Below are positions 8,128-47,850 of a stretch of DNA of 48,408 nucleotides, in pieces (position 1 is the stretch's first letter; every line of letters begins with the position of its first letter). The notes below the pieces were generated by a model. That model saw only the letters and a list, made by a program, of their open reading frames with translations. It did not search any database and was not told where the DNA came from. The stretch comes from Bacillota bacterium (lineage in GTDB: Bacteria; Bacillota; Negativicutes; Sporomusales; CTSoil-080). Made by a program: the position numbers and the translations under genes. Where the stretch lies: the NCBI GenBank assembly GCA_017889625.1, contig JAGGAD010000011.1:1-48408 (forward strand), read 5' to 3'.

Positions 8128-9132
8128 TTATCGTGACAAAAATTTATGTTTGGGATCATTACTTAACGCTTCTCGATTATGCGGTTCTCCCCATAACGCA
8201 TCAAAATCAATCTGATTCCAAAAGCGGGTATTGTAATCAACAAAATTCGTATCGGTGTCCCCATGCGCTTCAGCAAGATCCCGAAGATAGGTATTATTCT
8301 TAAAAGCGGTTATTTGATACAAGTCCCGAGCATAGCCCCATATATTTTTGAAATCAACAATACGATTTCGGACCGGTCCTAAATGTTTATAATAAGAAAT
8401 ATCAAACCTTGCCAACGTCACGAAAAACCGGACGTCGCTATCTGTTACATAATCTCCGAATAAAAAGCGGCGTGTTTCCAACCGTTTTTCTAGTTCATCC
8501 AAGCCTTTATAAAAGTTATCAAACGCAGCTGTATATGCTTCAATTGATTGCGCAAAAGCCGCCTTATACACCCCGTTATTGATGTTATGAAACAGCCAAT
8601 CATTTAGAGCATCAATGTCCTGTCTTAAGTTTTTCGGATATAAGTCCGGCGCATTTTTTTTGTGAAAAGGTGCAAAGTCAACCTCAAAGTAATTGGTTAA
8701 CTTATGATAATCATTATTAACTACTTTTTTAGTTTTAATGTCAACTAAGGCCGGTACGGTTGCCCGGCCTTGATACTCCGGATCAGCATTTGCATACAAT
8801 TGACTTAAAAATTGTTCCCCCAGTATAGGGTCAGTATTATTTTCGTCATAAATAAACTCCCAGCCCAAGTCTACTTCTCGTTTTGTTCTTCCTACCAAAT
8901 TAACGCTTACAGCGTCTATTCCCAATAATTCTCTTACAATAGCGGCTCTATTTGACCAATTGCACCCCTTGGCCCAAATTAAACGATAACGATTGGCCTC
9001 AACCGGATTTTCCTTTTTCCCTGTGCCAAAAGGAGTAGTAAAACGATTTTCTTGTCTTACAAAGGCTCCCTTTGTATCAATTTCATTTTCTGTTTCTTTG
9101 GGACGAGGTCTTGCTGTATTGATGTTCGACAT
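8128..9132 (-). CDS. Glutathionyl-hydroquinone reductase-like protein, copy 2 (altered active site)
   Basis: Paralogue of about 334 residues with the same two-domain layout as the flanking copies: GAFVRQENRFTTPFG, RATVPALVD, DSDVRFFVTLARFD and NIWGYARDLYQ. The active-site motif is GCNWSNR rather than CPWAHR; the catalytic Cys (residue 57) is kept, but the Pro, Ala and His around it are replaced. The N-terminal tail is longer and the C-terminus differs from the other two. The ATG at 9132 follows AGGAG. It lies 19 bases after copy 3 and 30 bases before the binding-protein gene. The altered motif suggests a different substrate or thiol partner rather than loss of function. Confidence 0.9.
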   Translation of the reverse strand: MSNINTARPRPKETENEIDTKGAFVRQENRFTTPFGTGKKENPVEANRYRLIWAKGCNWSNRAAIVRELLGIDAVSVNLVGRTKREVDLGWEFIYDENNTDPILGEQFLSQLYANADPEYQGRATVPALVDIKTKKVVNNDYHKLTNYFEVDFAPFHKKNAPDLYPKNLRQDIDALNDWLFHNINNGVYKAAFAQSIEAYTAAFDNFYKGLDELEKRLETRRFLFGDYVTDSDVRFFVTLARFDISYYKHLGPVRNRIVDFKNIWGYARDLYQITAFKNNTYLRDLAEAHGDTDTNFVDYNTRFWNQIDFDALWGEPHNREALSNDPKHKFLSR

Positions 9133-9151
9133 AACATACGTCTCCTTAATT

Positions 9152-10108
9152 TCATAAATTTTTTCTATTATGCGGTTTATTCCAGATAGTTAAATCAGGT
9201 CCTTTAGCTAGGATTTGATAGGGATTTTCAGCATGATTTCCTAAATGATACCCTCGCTTGATTGCGGTAAAATCTGTGGTATTTCCAAAGCCTGGCGTTT
9301 GATATAAATCTCTTGCATAACCCCATAAATTCGGGAAATCAATGATTCGATTGCGGTTAGTGCGAAATACAAGATAATAAGCGATATCAAAACGAACTAA
9401 TGTCACATATAAGCGAATATCCGAATCTGTAATGTAATTGCCAAATAAATACCGCTGCTTCGCTAACCGTTGCTCCAAGGCATCCAGCCTTGCAAATAAC
9501 GCATCATATGCTTTTTCATACTCTTGTTGTGATTGAGCAAATCCGGCTTTATATACGCCATTATTTACATCATTAAAAATAACATCATTCAGCTTATCAA
9601 TTTCTTTTCTTAACTCGACAGGATACAAATCAGGCGCATCTTTTTTATGAAATTTCACCCACGCGGTCTCCCAATAATTAGTCAATTTAAAGTAATCGTT
9701 ATTAACCACTTTACCGGTTTTTACATCAACTACGGTGGGTACGGTAGCACGGCCAGTATAATTAGGCTCTGTTCTTTCGTAAATTTCCGGCAAATACCTA
9801 ATGCCTAATACCGGATCTACGCCGCCTTCATCTAAAGAAAATTCCCAGCCTTTTTCTGTCCGCACCGGATTAGCCGTTCCTATACTAATGACATTTTCTA
9901 GTCCTAATAAATTTATTGCGATTACTTGCCGATGGGCCCACGGACAAATCGGCGCCCACAAAAGCCGGTAGCGATTGGCTTCAACCGGAAGCTCGTTCTT
10001 TCCATCCCCAAATGGAGTTGTAAAATAATTATTTTGCCGTACAAAAGCTCCATCTTTACTAATTTCATGGATAGATTCTGAAGTAGCTATTTTAGATTTC
10101 TTTGTCAT
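9152..10108 (-). CDS. Glutathionyl-hydroquinone reductase-like protein, copy 3
   Basis: About 318 residues with the canonical APICPWAHR motif (Cys at residue 55), RATVPTVVD, DSDIRLYVTLVRFD and NLWGYARDLYQTPGF. Much closer to copy 1 than to copy 2, so a local duplication is likely. The start at 10108 is placed by AAGGAAGG nine bases upstream; a longer in-frame reading overlaps the preceding GNAT gene and is unlikely. It follows the GNAT gene by 16 bases and precedes copy 2 by 19 bases. Confidence 0.9.
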   Translation of the reverse strand: MTKKSKIATSESIHEISKDGAFVRQNNYFTTPFGDGKNELPVEANRYRLLWAPICPWAHRQVIAINLLGLENVISIGTANPVRTEKGWEFSLDEGGVDPVLGIRYLPEIYERTEPNYTGRATVPTVVDVKTGKVVNNDYFKLTNYWETAWVKFHKKDAPDLYPVELRKEIDKLNDVIFNDVNNGVYKAGFAQSQQEYEKAYDALFARLDALEQRLAKQRYLFGNYITDSDIRLYVTLVRFDIAYYLVFRTNRNRIIDFPNLWGYARDLYQTPGFGNTTDFTAIKRGYHLGNHAENPYQILAKGPDLTIWNKPHNRKNL

Positions 10109-44160: not shown

Positions 44161-45534
44161 TCATTTGCTTATAGTTGAGTCAGGTACTTTCGTCCCAACT
44201 ATAACTACCCGGTCTTCCGAAGAAAATTCGTCAGTAGCAAGAAATTCACGATCAATTTCTTTTCCATTACGATATTTTATTCGATATGTGCTAACGATAA
44301 ATCCGTTTTGTCCTTTCTCTTCCACTACTTCTTGGCCAAGTTCAATATTAGAGTCTTGCTTAATAATATTATTTGGTTGAAGTATTTTTTGGTCACTAGA
44401 ATCAATCTCAATAGCCGGTGCGTTGAGCTGGCATTTGCCATAAATATACACAGTAAGTTGCCCATACTTCACTTCGGCGGTGATATAAATATTGTTAGAA
44501 GAAGTATTTTTAAATTTAAAATCCAGTTGATTATCAGCTACGGCTGCATCTTGTCCAAGGGGCACATACCCTGGTGGTCTAAAATGAGACGTCCGCTCTT
44601 CTATTCCTAAATCAGCAAGTAAAACAGCATTGTATAGGGTACTAGATACCTGGCATACTCCCCCATCCCATTCAGGAACAAGCTTACCATTAATAAAAAC
44701 AGGTGTCTCTTTATACCCATAATCGGCTAGCCGTAGACCGACCAACTGATTAAAGGAAAAAACCGCATTTTTTCTAACAAGTATATCAGTAATACTCTGG
44801 GTAGCTAACTTGATGTTCGTTGTACAATTTGGGTTTGTAGCATCAAATTGAGTAGAATATGAACCAATTATGCCTTCAATACCTTCGAGGTCTCGCCGTG
44901 TTACTTCGGGAACAGTTTCATTTACCGGCAAGGATATAGTTGTAGGCAATTTCTGTAATAATTTCGTTGAAACAGCAGCCATAGTAGCCTCAATGTCGAC
45001 AGCCAGTCCAATCCGTTCCGAGATTATTGTAAAATCGTGATTGGATCGTAATAGAGTGGCTTTTTGGGGATCTTGATTAATGGAGGCAGCAATCTGTAAA
45101 ATAATGTCTAATAATTTATCATTGTTATAAGACAAGTCTAGCGGAATTGAATAGCCGCTATGTAGTGTTACAAATTTTTCTTTTAGCTGCTTGAGTATAT
45201 TACCGGAACGCCCCACTGCAAAAGCCTTATTTGCTAAGCCTTCTGAATTAATAGTAAGGTCAATTTCCTGTGCGGCAATGTTCCATTTTTGATCTTTATA
45301 TGTAAGTATAAGAGCCTCTTGTTTGGTTTGTTCATAAAAAGCGGCATCTAGTTTTTTTTGAGCTTCTTTCTTAGATAATCCGCCAACATCAATGTTTCCT
45401 ACTTTAACTCCGTCATATACTAAATCTGTTATTGCAACGGTAGCATTAATAGATAACATACTGACAATGCTTAATAGTACGATAACACCTAAATACGGCA
45501 TTGTCTTTAATAAGCGCTTACGCTGTAGCTGCAC
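44161..45534 (-). CDS. VanW-family exported protein
   Basis: About 457 residues. An N-terminal membrane anchor (LGVIVLLSIVSMLSI) is followed by a peptidoglycan-binding-4-type domain (DVGGLSKKEAQKKLDAAF), then the VanW domain with its signatures TNIKLATQSITDILVRKNAVFSFN (in part), EWDGGVCQVSSTLYNAVLLA and FRPPGYVPLGQDAAV, and a short C-terminal beta-rich part like the G5 module. VanW proteins are common in Firmicutes and presumably act at the cell wall; the reaction is unknown. GTG start with AGGAAGGA six bases upstream. Separated from the PRC-barrel operon by a strong terminator. Confidence 0.93.
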   Translation of the reverse strand: MQLQRKRLLKTMPYLGVIVLLSIVSMLSINATVAITDLVYDGVKVGNIDVGGLSKKEAQKKLDAAFYEQTKQEALILTYKDQKWNIAAQEIDLTINSEGLANKAFAVGRSGNILKQLKEKFVTLHSGYSIPLDLSYNNDKLLDIILQIAASINQDPQKATLLRSNHDFTIISERIGLAVDIEATMAAVSTKLLQKLPTTISLPVNETVPEVTRRDLEGIEGIIGSYSTQFDATNPNCTTNIKLATQSITDILVRKNAVFSFNQLVGLRLADYGYKETPVFINGKLVPEWDGGVCQVSSTLYNAVLLADLGIEERTSHFRPPGYVPLGQDAAVADNQLDFKFKNTSSNNIYITAEVKYGQLTVYIYGKCQLNAPAIEIDSSDQKILQPNNIIKQDSNIELGQEVVEEKGQNGFIVSTYRIKYRNGKEIDREFLATDEFSSEDRVVIVGTKVPDSTISK

Positions 45535-45565: not shown

Positions 45566-45587
45566 AATCCCCCGCAAAGCGGGGGCT
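45566..45587 (-). terminator. Terminator of the c-di-GMP-controlled operon
   Basis: CCCCCGC-TTT-GCGGGGG followed by ATTTTCG on the minus strand, directly after the PRC-barrel stop. Confidence 0.85.
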
Positions 45588-45590
45588 ATC

Positions 45591-46355
45591 TTAGATACTC
45601 ATTGAAAGTTCGACAAATTTTCCAGCCAACTTCGCTTTTTGAATGACTTCTTCGGTAATTTCTCCATTTTGTTCAACAATTAACACACCATTGTCCGTTG
45701 CAATTTTCCGATTAGCTTTTTTGCCAAGCAAATATTTACGTTGTTTATCATCAAATTTTTTGGATAAATCTTCTGATGACTCTTGAACTGTTTTGGGTCG
45801 TTCACCAGCATCAGGTTTAACAACTTGTGTAGCTTCGACTGTTTCCGTTGATGGTACCGACCGACTTAGTGACGCTGTATGATGAATAACCGGTATCTCT
45901 TCATCGGCTATGATAATAACATCTTTACCAAAAGTTATGACTTGTTCCCCAGCAACAGACTTAGTTTCAGTTTCATTGCTGATTTCGCAGTTAACAATTC
46001 TACCAGTATCATCCATTTCAATTTCACTGACTTTACCTTGATACCGACCATTCCTAGTTAATACTTTTGCTCCAATAACTTTTACATCAGCTTCCAGGAA
46101 TTTTTCTAAGTCGGGCGCGCTCTGAATAGATATAATATGAGTACTGCTTTCGGTAGTAATGGCGTTTTCACCAATGCCGGACACCGCAGTGAAAGGAAGT
46201 AACTTAGCTCCCAGATACCATTTACCATCTTCTACCACAATGGCGGCAACAGTTCCTTTATCCGCATCAACAACTAGTCCTTTTGCAGTCCCTAATTCAC
46301 TACCTTCTTTAATGCTTATGACCTGAAGGCCAAGAATATCCACAGTTTTTTTCAT
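45591..46355 (-). CDS. PRC-barrel domain protein
   Basis: About 254 residues with two PRC-barrel repeats (ILGLQVISIKEGSELGTAKGLVVD and IGAKVLTRNGRYQGKVSEIEMD), then a variable Ser/Thr/Glu linker and a C-terminal helical piece ending TEEVIQKAKLAGKFVELSMSI, also found at the ends of similar Firmicute proteins. PRC-barrels are protein- or RNA-interaction modules, often in envelope or photosynthetic assembly roles. ATG behind AGGGGGTAAAGG. It lies 25 bases after the TPR-like gene and before a terminator; likely cotranscribed under the c-di-GMP riboswitch. Confidence 0.9.
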   Translation of the reverse strand: MKKTVDILGLQVISIKEGSELGTAKGLVVDADKGTVAAIVVEDGKWYLGAKLLPFTAVSGIGENAITTESSTHIISIQSAPDLEKFLEADVKVIGAKVLTRNGRYQGKVSEIEMDDTGRIVNCEISNETETKSVAGEQVITFGKDVIIIADEEIPVIHHTASLSRSVPSTETVEATQVVKPDAGERPKTVQESSEDLSKKFDDKQRKYLLGKKANRKIATDNGVLIVEQNGEITEEVIQKAKLAGKFVELSMSI

Positions 46356-46380
46356 TACCTTTACCCCCTATTTATCTAAT

Positions 46381-47178
46381 TTATGCTAAAATTCGCCATT
46401 CCCGAAATTCAACATTAATTTCTTCAGAAATATCTACCGGAATTTGATTGAATGGAAGATAGCCGGTCCGTCGCTGAATTAAGGTATTCTTGATAATACG
46501 CAGATAGGCAATCGTTGATATTAATTCACGCTCTAACAATGAGTTACGCGCTAAACCAGGTAAATTACGACTAATAGTCAAAAACGATATAGCTTCATCA
46601 TATGCTCCCTTATTCATTAACAGCTTGGAAATCTCCAGCGCCAAGTGCGGTGCGGCATCGCTCTCATGGTAGAGGTTATAAGCTTGTCTAAAGGTATCAA
46701 GCGCTAATTGGTTATTCCCAGTTTCTTTATGTTGGAAAGCAAAATCGAGCAAATCATCTAATGAATTGGAAAGTGAATATTCGATAGTAACCAATGGACC
46801 ATCATCTCTATGAGTAAATGTAGCATCACTTATCTCAGTCTCCCTTGTTCCAGCGAGACCAGTATGTGGCGCTGTATCAGGTGATAAGTCTAATTCAAAA
46901 GAATCATTATCTGTTTTCTTTTCAAAATTGGGGTTGTCATAATAAGCGACAATATAGGCAAATATGACAGCAAATAACGCTAAAAAAACAATAGTTCCGG
47001 CTAAACCAACAAAACTTACCACAAGACGTGGTAAGCCAATACATAAAATAAGTGCACAGGCTGCGCATAAAAGCAGTGATTTCAAGCTTAATGAAATTTT
47101 AAAAAGTTTATTGGCTAGTAAATATACGATAAAGGCAGTAAAAGAAATTGCCAATAATGTTATTACTAGATATTCCAC
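46381..47178 (-). CDS. Membrane protein with TPR-like cytoplasmic domain
   Basis: About 265 residues. Three hydrophobic segments in the first 95 residues, an acidic linker, then helices with TPR-like spacing (LLDFAFQHKETGNNQLALDTFRQAYNLYH and the AYDEAISFL repeat). GTG start after AGGTGATGAAG. It overlaps the upstream small membrane protein gene by 13 bases. Function unknown; a scaffold for envelope proteins with the PRC-barrel protein is a guess. Confidence 0.8.
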   Translation of the reverse strand: MEYLVITLLAISFTAFIVYLLANKLFKISLSLKSLLLCAACALILCIGLPRLVVSFVGLAGTIVFLALFAVIFAYIVAYYDNPNFEKKTDNDSFELDLSPDTAPHTGLAGTRETEISDATFTHRDDGPLVTIEYSLSNSLDDLLDFAFQHKETGNNQLALDTFRQAYNLYHESDAAPHLALEISKLLMNKGAYDEAISFLTISRNLPGLARNSLLERELISTIAYLRIIKNTLIQRRTGYLPFNQIPVDISEEINVEFREWRILA

Positions 47179-47389
47179 ACTTCATCACCTAAATTCGTTT
47201 GAGAAACTTTTCTTAATAGCCATTCATTTATGATGTTTATTTTATCCTCTAAGTTTTTATTTCGAAATGGTTTATCGGCTTCTGAAAAACACTTTGGGGA
47301 ATATGAAACATTGAGTAAAAATAAGATGTTATCAAATAAAGAATCGTACAGCTTAACGCTATAATGAGAACGTCTATCCAAAAATCCAC
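47166..47389 (-). CDS. Small membrane protein, apparently frameshifted
   Basis: From a GTG at 47389 behind AGGGAGGT a frame encodes a membrane helix (VDFWIDVLIIALSCTILYLI) but stops at 47249 after 46 residues. The next frame continues with LEDKINIINEWLLRKVSQTN to a stop that overlaps the TPR-like gene. The switch needs one extra A, or a -1 slip, at the A5 run 47254-47258. First gene of the c-di-GMP operon. Total about 74 residues if joined. Sequencing error, pseudogene and programmed slip are all possible. Confidence 0.55.
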
Positions 47390-47437
47390 GCTTATACCTC
47401 CCTATCACTATTTACTTGAAAAATTATTTTTAAAAAC

Positions 47438-47473
47438 AAAAAACACCTAGTCAAAAACAGACAGACAGGTGCC
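47438..47473 (-). terminator. Expression-platform terminator of the c-di-GMP riboswitch
   Basis: CACCT-GTC pairs with GAC-AGGTG on the minus strand and is followed by TTTTTTG. Located between the aptamer and the first gene. Confidence 0.8.
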
Positions 47474-47494
47474 AACAAATACAATTCTCCATTG

Positions 47495-47573
47495 AATCGG
47501 CAACCTGGCAGTCGTAGACATCTGTCCTTAGACCCATAGCTTTGCGTCCTTATTTTTCAATAAGTTTGCCAAA
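47495..47573 (-). promoter_or_regulatory. c-di-GMP-I (GEMM) riboswitch
   Basis: On the minus strand the leader has GGCAAAC, a GAAA-type loop, GGACGCAAAGC, GGGTCTAAGG, a P3 arm and CCAGGTTGCCGA, the conserved GEMM-I blocks in correct order, including the GCAAAC/GACGCAAAGC core and the GGTTGCCGA closing strand. It is followed by a terminator and the small membrane/TPR/PRC-barrel genes. Confidence 0.92.
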
Positions 47574-47850
47574 AATATTTTAATTTTTTGTCAATTTTTG
47601 TTGAATAAATTTAATGTTTAAATTTTACACCTACATCCATCTATTAGTCAAGAATTTTTAGGACTAAAGTCTCATTTTGTAAAAAAGGGTTGACGTACGA
47701 TATTTATATTCTTTTTAAGACATATCAAATAACGACCCAAAAAATAATCGTGATCTTTGGACGATAATCATTAAATAAATAGAACTGCCTTTACATTCGA
47801 AAAGAATTAATTAATAATGACCATTAACTCGAAAATCTAGATCATTATCG
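47574..47850. other. AT-rich intergenic region
   Basis: Contains the presumed promoter of the riboswitch operon and no gene that I can support. Confidence 0.4.

Follow-up and report, generated by a model that had tools for sequence, protein, structure and literature searches.

The window analysed here, a stretch of 48,408 nucleotides that is contig C52 of a MAG, carries a riboswitch leader followed by a small membrane peptide and an envelope-related gene block. The named relatives with which it was compared, among them Sporomusa, Propionispora, and Lucifera, all belong to the Negativicutes, a group of diderm Firmicutes. The features, in the order in which a transcript would meet them, are as follows:

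47622–47651, minus strand: promoter-like site (TTGACT, 18 nt, TAAAAT) upstream of the aptamer, 10/12 in a consensus scan
47496–47580, minus strand: c-di-GMP-I (GEMM-I) aptamer, Rfam RF01051, with G at position 20
47499–47507, minus strand: aptamer 3' strand, the candidate antiterminator strand, predicted to pair with 47473-47466 at probabilities of ~0.9 in the free leader
47432–47473, minus strand: intrinsic terminator (stem 47473-47442 plus U run), predicted to form when the aptamer is forced
47249–47389, minus strand: 46-aa single-TM peptide with a GTG start behind GGGAGG, in a frame different from that of an overlapping 80-aa ORF
46381–47178, minus strand: three-TM protein with a cytoplasmic-type TPR bundle, 265 aa (ORF, profiles, model)
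45591–46355, minus strand: double PRC-barrel protein, 254 aa (Pfam PRC 3.6e-13, two stretches; model, fold match)
45569–45585, minus strand: GC hairpin between PRC and vanW, of a kind present in 49/56 loci
44161–45534, minus strand: VanW/G5/PG_binding_4 protein, third gene of a duplicated block (domains, synteny)

The initial annotation had placed a GEMM-I aptamer and a terminator ahead of three genes unlike those of motility, pili, or adhesins. The aptamer was borne out (80.9 bits against a cut-off of 35), as was the terminator after it (47473-47432, with a U run), and our results support the presence of a c-di-GMP-type riboswitch before genes of a non-motility, non-pilus, non-adhesin kind. 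Two of its three genes, those for the TM/TPR and PRC-barrel proteins, are present at 47178-46381 and 46355-45591, and its first gene, the 80-aa ORF, was wrong: relatives exist instead for the 46-aa peptide in another frame. Further, vanW, which had been overlooked, is a member of the same conserved block.

The aptamer (47580-47496) matches RF01051 over its full length (1-87; E 1.9e-14, gathering score 35), with zero broken or non-standard pairs flagged. Its G before GCAAAC, position 20 in the numbering of the Vc2 structure, is that of the c-di-GMP type rather than that of the A20 cGAMP-type variant. Nine GEMM-I aptamers, the window one included, are found in the source genome, and some of the others precede a response regulator, a GGDEF gene, or a chemoreceptor-type gene, as judged by eye from the ORFs. 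A20 aptamers, the mark of cGAMP-type variants, occur in the same genome on C94, C53, and C45, and also at loci L102, L116, L117, L119, and L184. The promoter-like site upstream of the aptamer is weak evidence, because the consensus scan found 18 such sites in the whole stretch against 14.6 expected; a further site 3' of the aptamer (47454-47426, 9/12) is at chance level. Elsewhere in the window, a SAM riboswitch lies at 2615-2513 on the minus strand (92.3 bits).

Two exclusive folds of the leader were computed. In the free leader (-39.7 kcal/mol), aptamer nucleotides 74-82 pair with the 5' arm of the terminator, a pairing whose strength was matched by 4/300 shuffles; in the leader with the aptamer forced (-33.4 kcal/mol), the terminator 108-117/129-139 is present. 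On the terms of the model, the gap between the two energies must be made up by ligand energy and tertiary contacts, both of which lie outside it. The aptamer and the terminator share no strand. Because the aptamer 3' strand can pair with the terminator 5' arm, we predict that the window element works as a Cd1-type OFF switch; in its predicted folds, the terminator can form alongside the folded aptamer, and an antiterminator disrupts that terminator. The Cd1 OFF switch of Clostridioides difficile is described as having a coexisting aptamer and terminator that compete with an antiterminator (PMC9262584). The window element thus shares with Cd1 the aptamer family and a terminator of this behavior, although the genes behind it encode a small TM peptide and the proteins of an envelope block rather than flagellar proteins, and its mechanism is a prediction from folds. 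Among 19 related leaders (15 of the peptide type, window included, and four of genus g18), every one carries, 3' of the aptamer, a terminator that survives whole in 17 and mostly in two when the aptamer is forced; a clear antiterminator (at least four expected pairs) was found in 10/19 and not in 9/19, these being equilibrium folds, which may differ from co-transcriptional ones. The riboswitch probably binds c-di-GMP and shuts the downstream genes off when the ligand is high. In itself, it is an ordinary member of its family with an ordinary predicted mechanism, the aptamer and the mechanism both being of known kinds.

The gene immediately behind the leader required revision. The 80-aa ORF (47408-47166) was rejected as a gene: it had no relative in 60 related genomes, where its best non-self match reached E 0.056, and no family above cut-off in Pfam/NCBIfam-type family scans. 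A profile of 14 relatives, built without the window, picked out the 46-aa peptide (E 2.3e-11) from the 1016 six-frame segments of the window; the aptamer lies 107 nt upstream of it. The C-terminal codons of the window peptide spell NHFEIKT followed by TAG, RIK, and a stop codon; the corresponding end of a Sporomusa member is NHIEIRTWRIK before its stop. The TAG falls on the conserved Trp of the family, and the window peptide is without this C-terminal Trp and the basic residues that follow it; unless there is an assembly error here, it has lost its final four residues. Because the TAG cuts it short, the peptide may be decaying, or the codon may be a MAG error.

Similar peptides lie behind the GEMM-I leaders of relatives. 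Searching 60 genomes with an alignment of seven peptides (A3) gave 16 matches in 14 genomes, and searching 300 genomes of the class with an alignment of 15 peptides (A5) gave 23 matches in 21 genomes. In the 24 places combined, a same-strand aptamer, called with the GEMM-I covariance model, lies 83-417 nt upstream in 20, against ~0.01 expected by aptamer density; seven of the 16 A3 matches are seeds that were chosen for following GEMM-I, and an aptamer accompanies eight of the nine non-seeds. The window peptide belongs to this family by both its profile match and its place behind a GEMM-I aptamer. Among the four places without an aptamer, the one in G068 is a clear member (E 1e-20), and those in G034, G072, and G227 are marginal (E 4e-4 to 6e-4); at the G068 locus, L191, there is no GEMM-I element within 1500 nt. 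The small peptide is the most constant partner of such GEMM-I leaders. Of eight proteins scanned that follow it, five have an HD domain and one is an EAL-HDOD protein; these six, in six genomes, would by their domains be of the c-di-GMP phosphodiesterase type. The genes behind the peptide in relatives are thus HD, EAL-HDOD, or unrelated ones, and not the TPR-PRC-vanW trio.

No fitting Pfam/NCBIfam entry was found for the peptide family (single matches at E 0.02 or worse), and a search of 398 genomes across the phylum returned the source genome and one marginal place, with nothing convincing beyond the class. The GEMM-I-linked peptide family and its regulon appear to be new. Another GEMM-I leader of the source genome, on C94 (L085, 3933-4109, plus strand), comes with a family TM peptide of 55-58 aa and has no other same-strand gene close behind. 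At L175, L176, and L178 (G042, G025), a conserved, soluble ORF of 57-59 aa lies between GEMM-I and the peptide, charge-rich and of the pattern MLQ/E-F-R/KAVE-KR-ELEELR..., and at L179 (G021), two GEMM-I aptamers stand back to back, one per strand (242-330, minus; 531-617, plus). A GEMM-I/peptide block beside yifB was sought in the relatives G002, G004, and G014 and not found there.

The remaining products were characterized from profiles and predicted structures. The model of the TPR protein (mean pLDDT 80.8) begins with three long helices at the N-terminus; a disordered linker follows, and then a bundle of helices. The window protein falls below the Pfam TPR cut-off (TPR_19, 13.7 vs 25 bits); its relatives match TPR families (TPR_2 in 16/20 at E 0.1), its profile finds designed TPR chains (3.5e-10), and Foldseek on the model returned weak TPR matches only (best E 0.028). 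The PRC-barrel protein passes its cut-off in two stretches (PF05239, 49.8 vs 21.2 bits; model pLDDT 82.2), and its best fold match is with the double-PRC proteins CdpB1/CdpB2 of Archaeoglobus (PDB 8qzo; E 5e-10, TM-score 0.73 by target). Identity to these proteins is 16-18%, and the Negativicutes protein adds a linker and an extra C-terminal region. CdpB1 and CdpB2 act in archaeal division, a role that the match does not imply for the window protein. It also resembles the YlmC/YmxH sporulation proteins in its PRC barrel, although weakly (TIGR02888, 21.6 bits vs a cut-off of 44.2), and that profile describes a single barrel of 76 positions where the window protein has a double one. The last protein resembles VanW-type wall proteins, with PG_binding_4, VanW, and G5 domains above cut-off, but is not the glycopeptide-resistance VanW equivalog (67.5 vs 365 bits). 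The peptide may be a small membrane modulator, the TPR and PRC proteins may form a membrane-bound scaffold, and VanW would act at the cell wall.

The trio itself is a conserved possession of the class. Relatives of the TPR protein were found in 45/60 genomes and those of the PRC protein in 47/60; at E 1e-25, the PRC search reached 25/28 genomes of the order and 158/300 of the class. In the gene maps, the common order is hflX-ynbB-TPR-PRC-vanW, often followed by lexA on the opposite strand (hflX, ynbB, and lexA being names assigned by eye). In the source genome, this block sits on contig C100 (L082); TPR-PRC-vanW is present again in the window, there without hflX and ynbB. The window trio is a diverged duplicate from this conserved block of the Negativicutes, and the housekeeping copy carries no riboswitch. 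In a PRC+VanW tree of 56 loci, the window joins the C100 copy (0.897), and the two then join G002 of the same family (1.000). No second separate trio copy was found elsewhere among the 28 genomes of the order; G010 has a tandem. A GC hairpin (CCCCGC/GCGGGG type) occupies the PRC-vanW gap in 49/56 loci, window included, and therefore the block moved with its hairpin. The hairpin may lower vanW output; its candidate roles are those of terminator, attenuator, and mRNA stabilizer.

How regularly is the trio tied to a riboswitch? An Rfam scan of 20 trio loci found no riboswitch, and a scan of 16 more sources found two GEMM-I elements. The GEMM-I model, applied to 63 sources (the window and trio loci), called six aptamers, in the window and at L097, L102, L116, L117, and L119. 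The one at L097 (G058) was rejected as a case: it is encoded on the other strand and heads a different gene, with 712 nt between it and TPR. Conservation of the operon together with the riboswitch, which the initial annotation had proposed as a check, thus failed as a general rule: most trio loci lack GEMM-I, and the idea that the riboswitch is conserved with the TPR-PRC pair in general was set aside. Because most relatives carry the trio without a riboswitch, a c-di-GMP response is no general property of the trio. L102, L116, L117, and L119, by contrast, are loci of four genomes of genus g18 (G049, G060, G077, and G085) in which the aptamer lies between TPR and PRC; two further g18 genomes, G031 and G067 (L103, L118), have no GEMM-I in the trio. 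The window and the g18 cases are far apart on the PRC+VanW tree, and from the presence of GEMM-I in four g18 species of another genus, it follows that the link between riboswitch and trio arose at least twice. Two independent gains compare with 0.06 expected (P ~0.002), a rough figure that counts the window case from which the search started; without it, the P for a GEMM-I gain in the trio is ~0.06. That a second genus acquired the element independently speaks for a genuine functional connection.

Position 20 is A in the g18 aptamers and G in the window; with A20, those of g18 might sense cGAMP (PMC6274999, on G20A). Behind their GEMM-I terminator, the g18 PRC leaders contain ~110 well-conserved, structured-looking nucleotides (L102 ~9060-9240; also L116, L117, and L119), in which Rfam detected nothing besides GEMM-I. 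Within the open-access texts returned by the terms used, no paper tied these genes to a c-di-GMP riboswitch.

Taken together, we consider it likely that the locus is a c-di-GMP-repressed transcription unit of the peptide, TPR, PRC, and then vanW. Here, a diverged second copy of the trio would have come under a GEMM-I/peptide cassette. RNA polymerase would start upstream of 47580 and make the GEMM-I aptamer; at low c-di-GMP, the aptamer 3' strand and the terminator 5' arm would pair, and read-through would yield the 46-aa membrane peptide, then the membrane TPR protein and the double PRC-barrel protein, with vanW last, behind the conserved hairpin that possibly lowers its output. At high c-di-GMP, the ligand would hold the aptamer, the terminator would form, and the genes would be off. 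The aptamer, the two folds, the homology of the peptide, the duplication, and the independent gain in g18 are computed; ligand binding, the sign of the control, a shared transcript for peptide and trio, and the product roles are inferred.

The co-transcription step is where another reading comes closest: the riboswitch could control the peptide alone, the TPR-PRC-vanW copy being a bystander with its own promoter. This would fit the relatives, in which the peptide precedes HD, EAL-HDOD, or unrelated genes rather than the trio, as well as the 70-nt gap between peptide and TPR and the weak promoter-like site 3' of the aptamer. We regard it as rather unlikely, given that all genes lie on the same strand, that a terminator scan finds none between peptide and TPR, and that GEMM-I was acquired within this trio by another lineage as well. 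That the whole locus is a decaying duplicate, with a truncated peptide and a redundant trio, is suggested by the TAG and by the complete second trio on C100, but the TPR, PRC, and VanW frames are intact, as are the aptamer and terminator. Moreover, the two trio copies have similar branch lengths (0.34 and 0.29) and are 79-83% identical at codon position 2 and 42-50% at position 3, a pattern as would be expected for two genes under constraint, which together make wholesale decay decidedly unlikely.

The sign and ligand of the switch could also differ from those proposed. Leaders of the GEMM-I type include ON switches, such as that of pilM (PMC9262584), and A20 variants occur in the source genome itself; an ON switch or a cGAMP sensor is nevertheless very improbable here, the window aptamer having G20 and an aptamer and terminator without a shared strand, as in the OFF switch Cd1. 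Finally, the 80-aa, TPR, and PRC proteins had been suggested to form a c-di-GMP-responsive envelope complex. TPR and PRC do stay adjacent across the Negativicutes, but the 80-aa ORF is without the relatives that the other frame has, and the riboswitch is absent from the conserved block in most genomes, so that such a complex is extremely improbable.

What is new in the c-di-GMP-repressed unit that we favor lies in its targets: an undescribed GEMM-I-associated peptide family, and a duplicated envelope block placed under the switch, with a second independent case in g18. A broader, tentative proposal, which we rate as possible but less likely than not, is that GEMM-I in Negativicutes gates single-helix membrane peptides of 46-67 aa that are made at low c-di-GMP only and modulate, in the membrane, partners encoded next door. 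In Sporomusa-like genomes, these partners would be c-di-GMP phosphodiesterases; in the window, they would be the extra double-PRC/TPR scaffold of the envelope. Gene finders readily overlook small membrane proteins, and a peptide that stands behind a c-di-GMP riboswitch in 20/24 places is a candidate direct output of c-di-GMP in the Negativicutes. The duplicated TPR/PRC/vanW block, with its two riboswitch gains, provides a well-defined case in which to test whether the reach of c-di-GMP extends past motility and adhesion to the tuning of an envelope scaffold.
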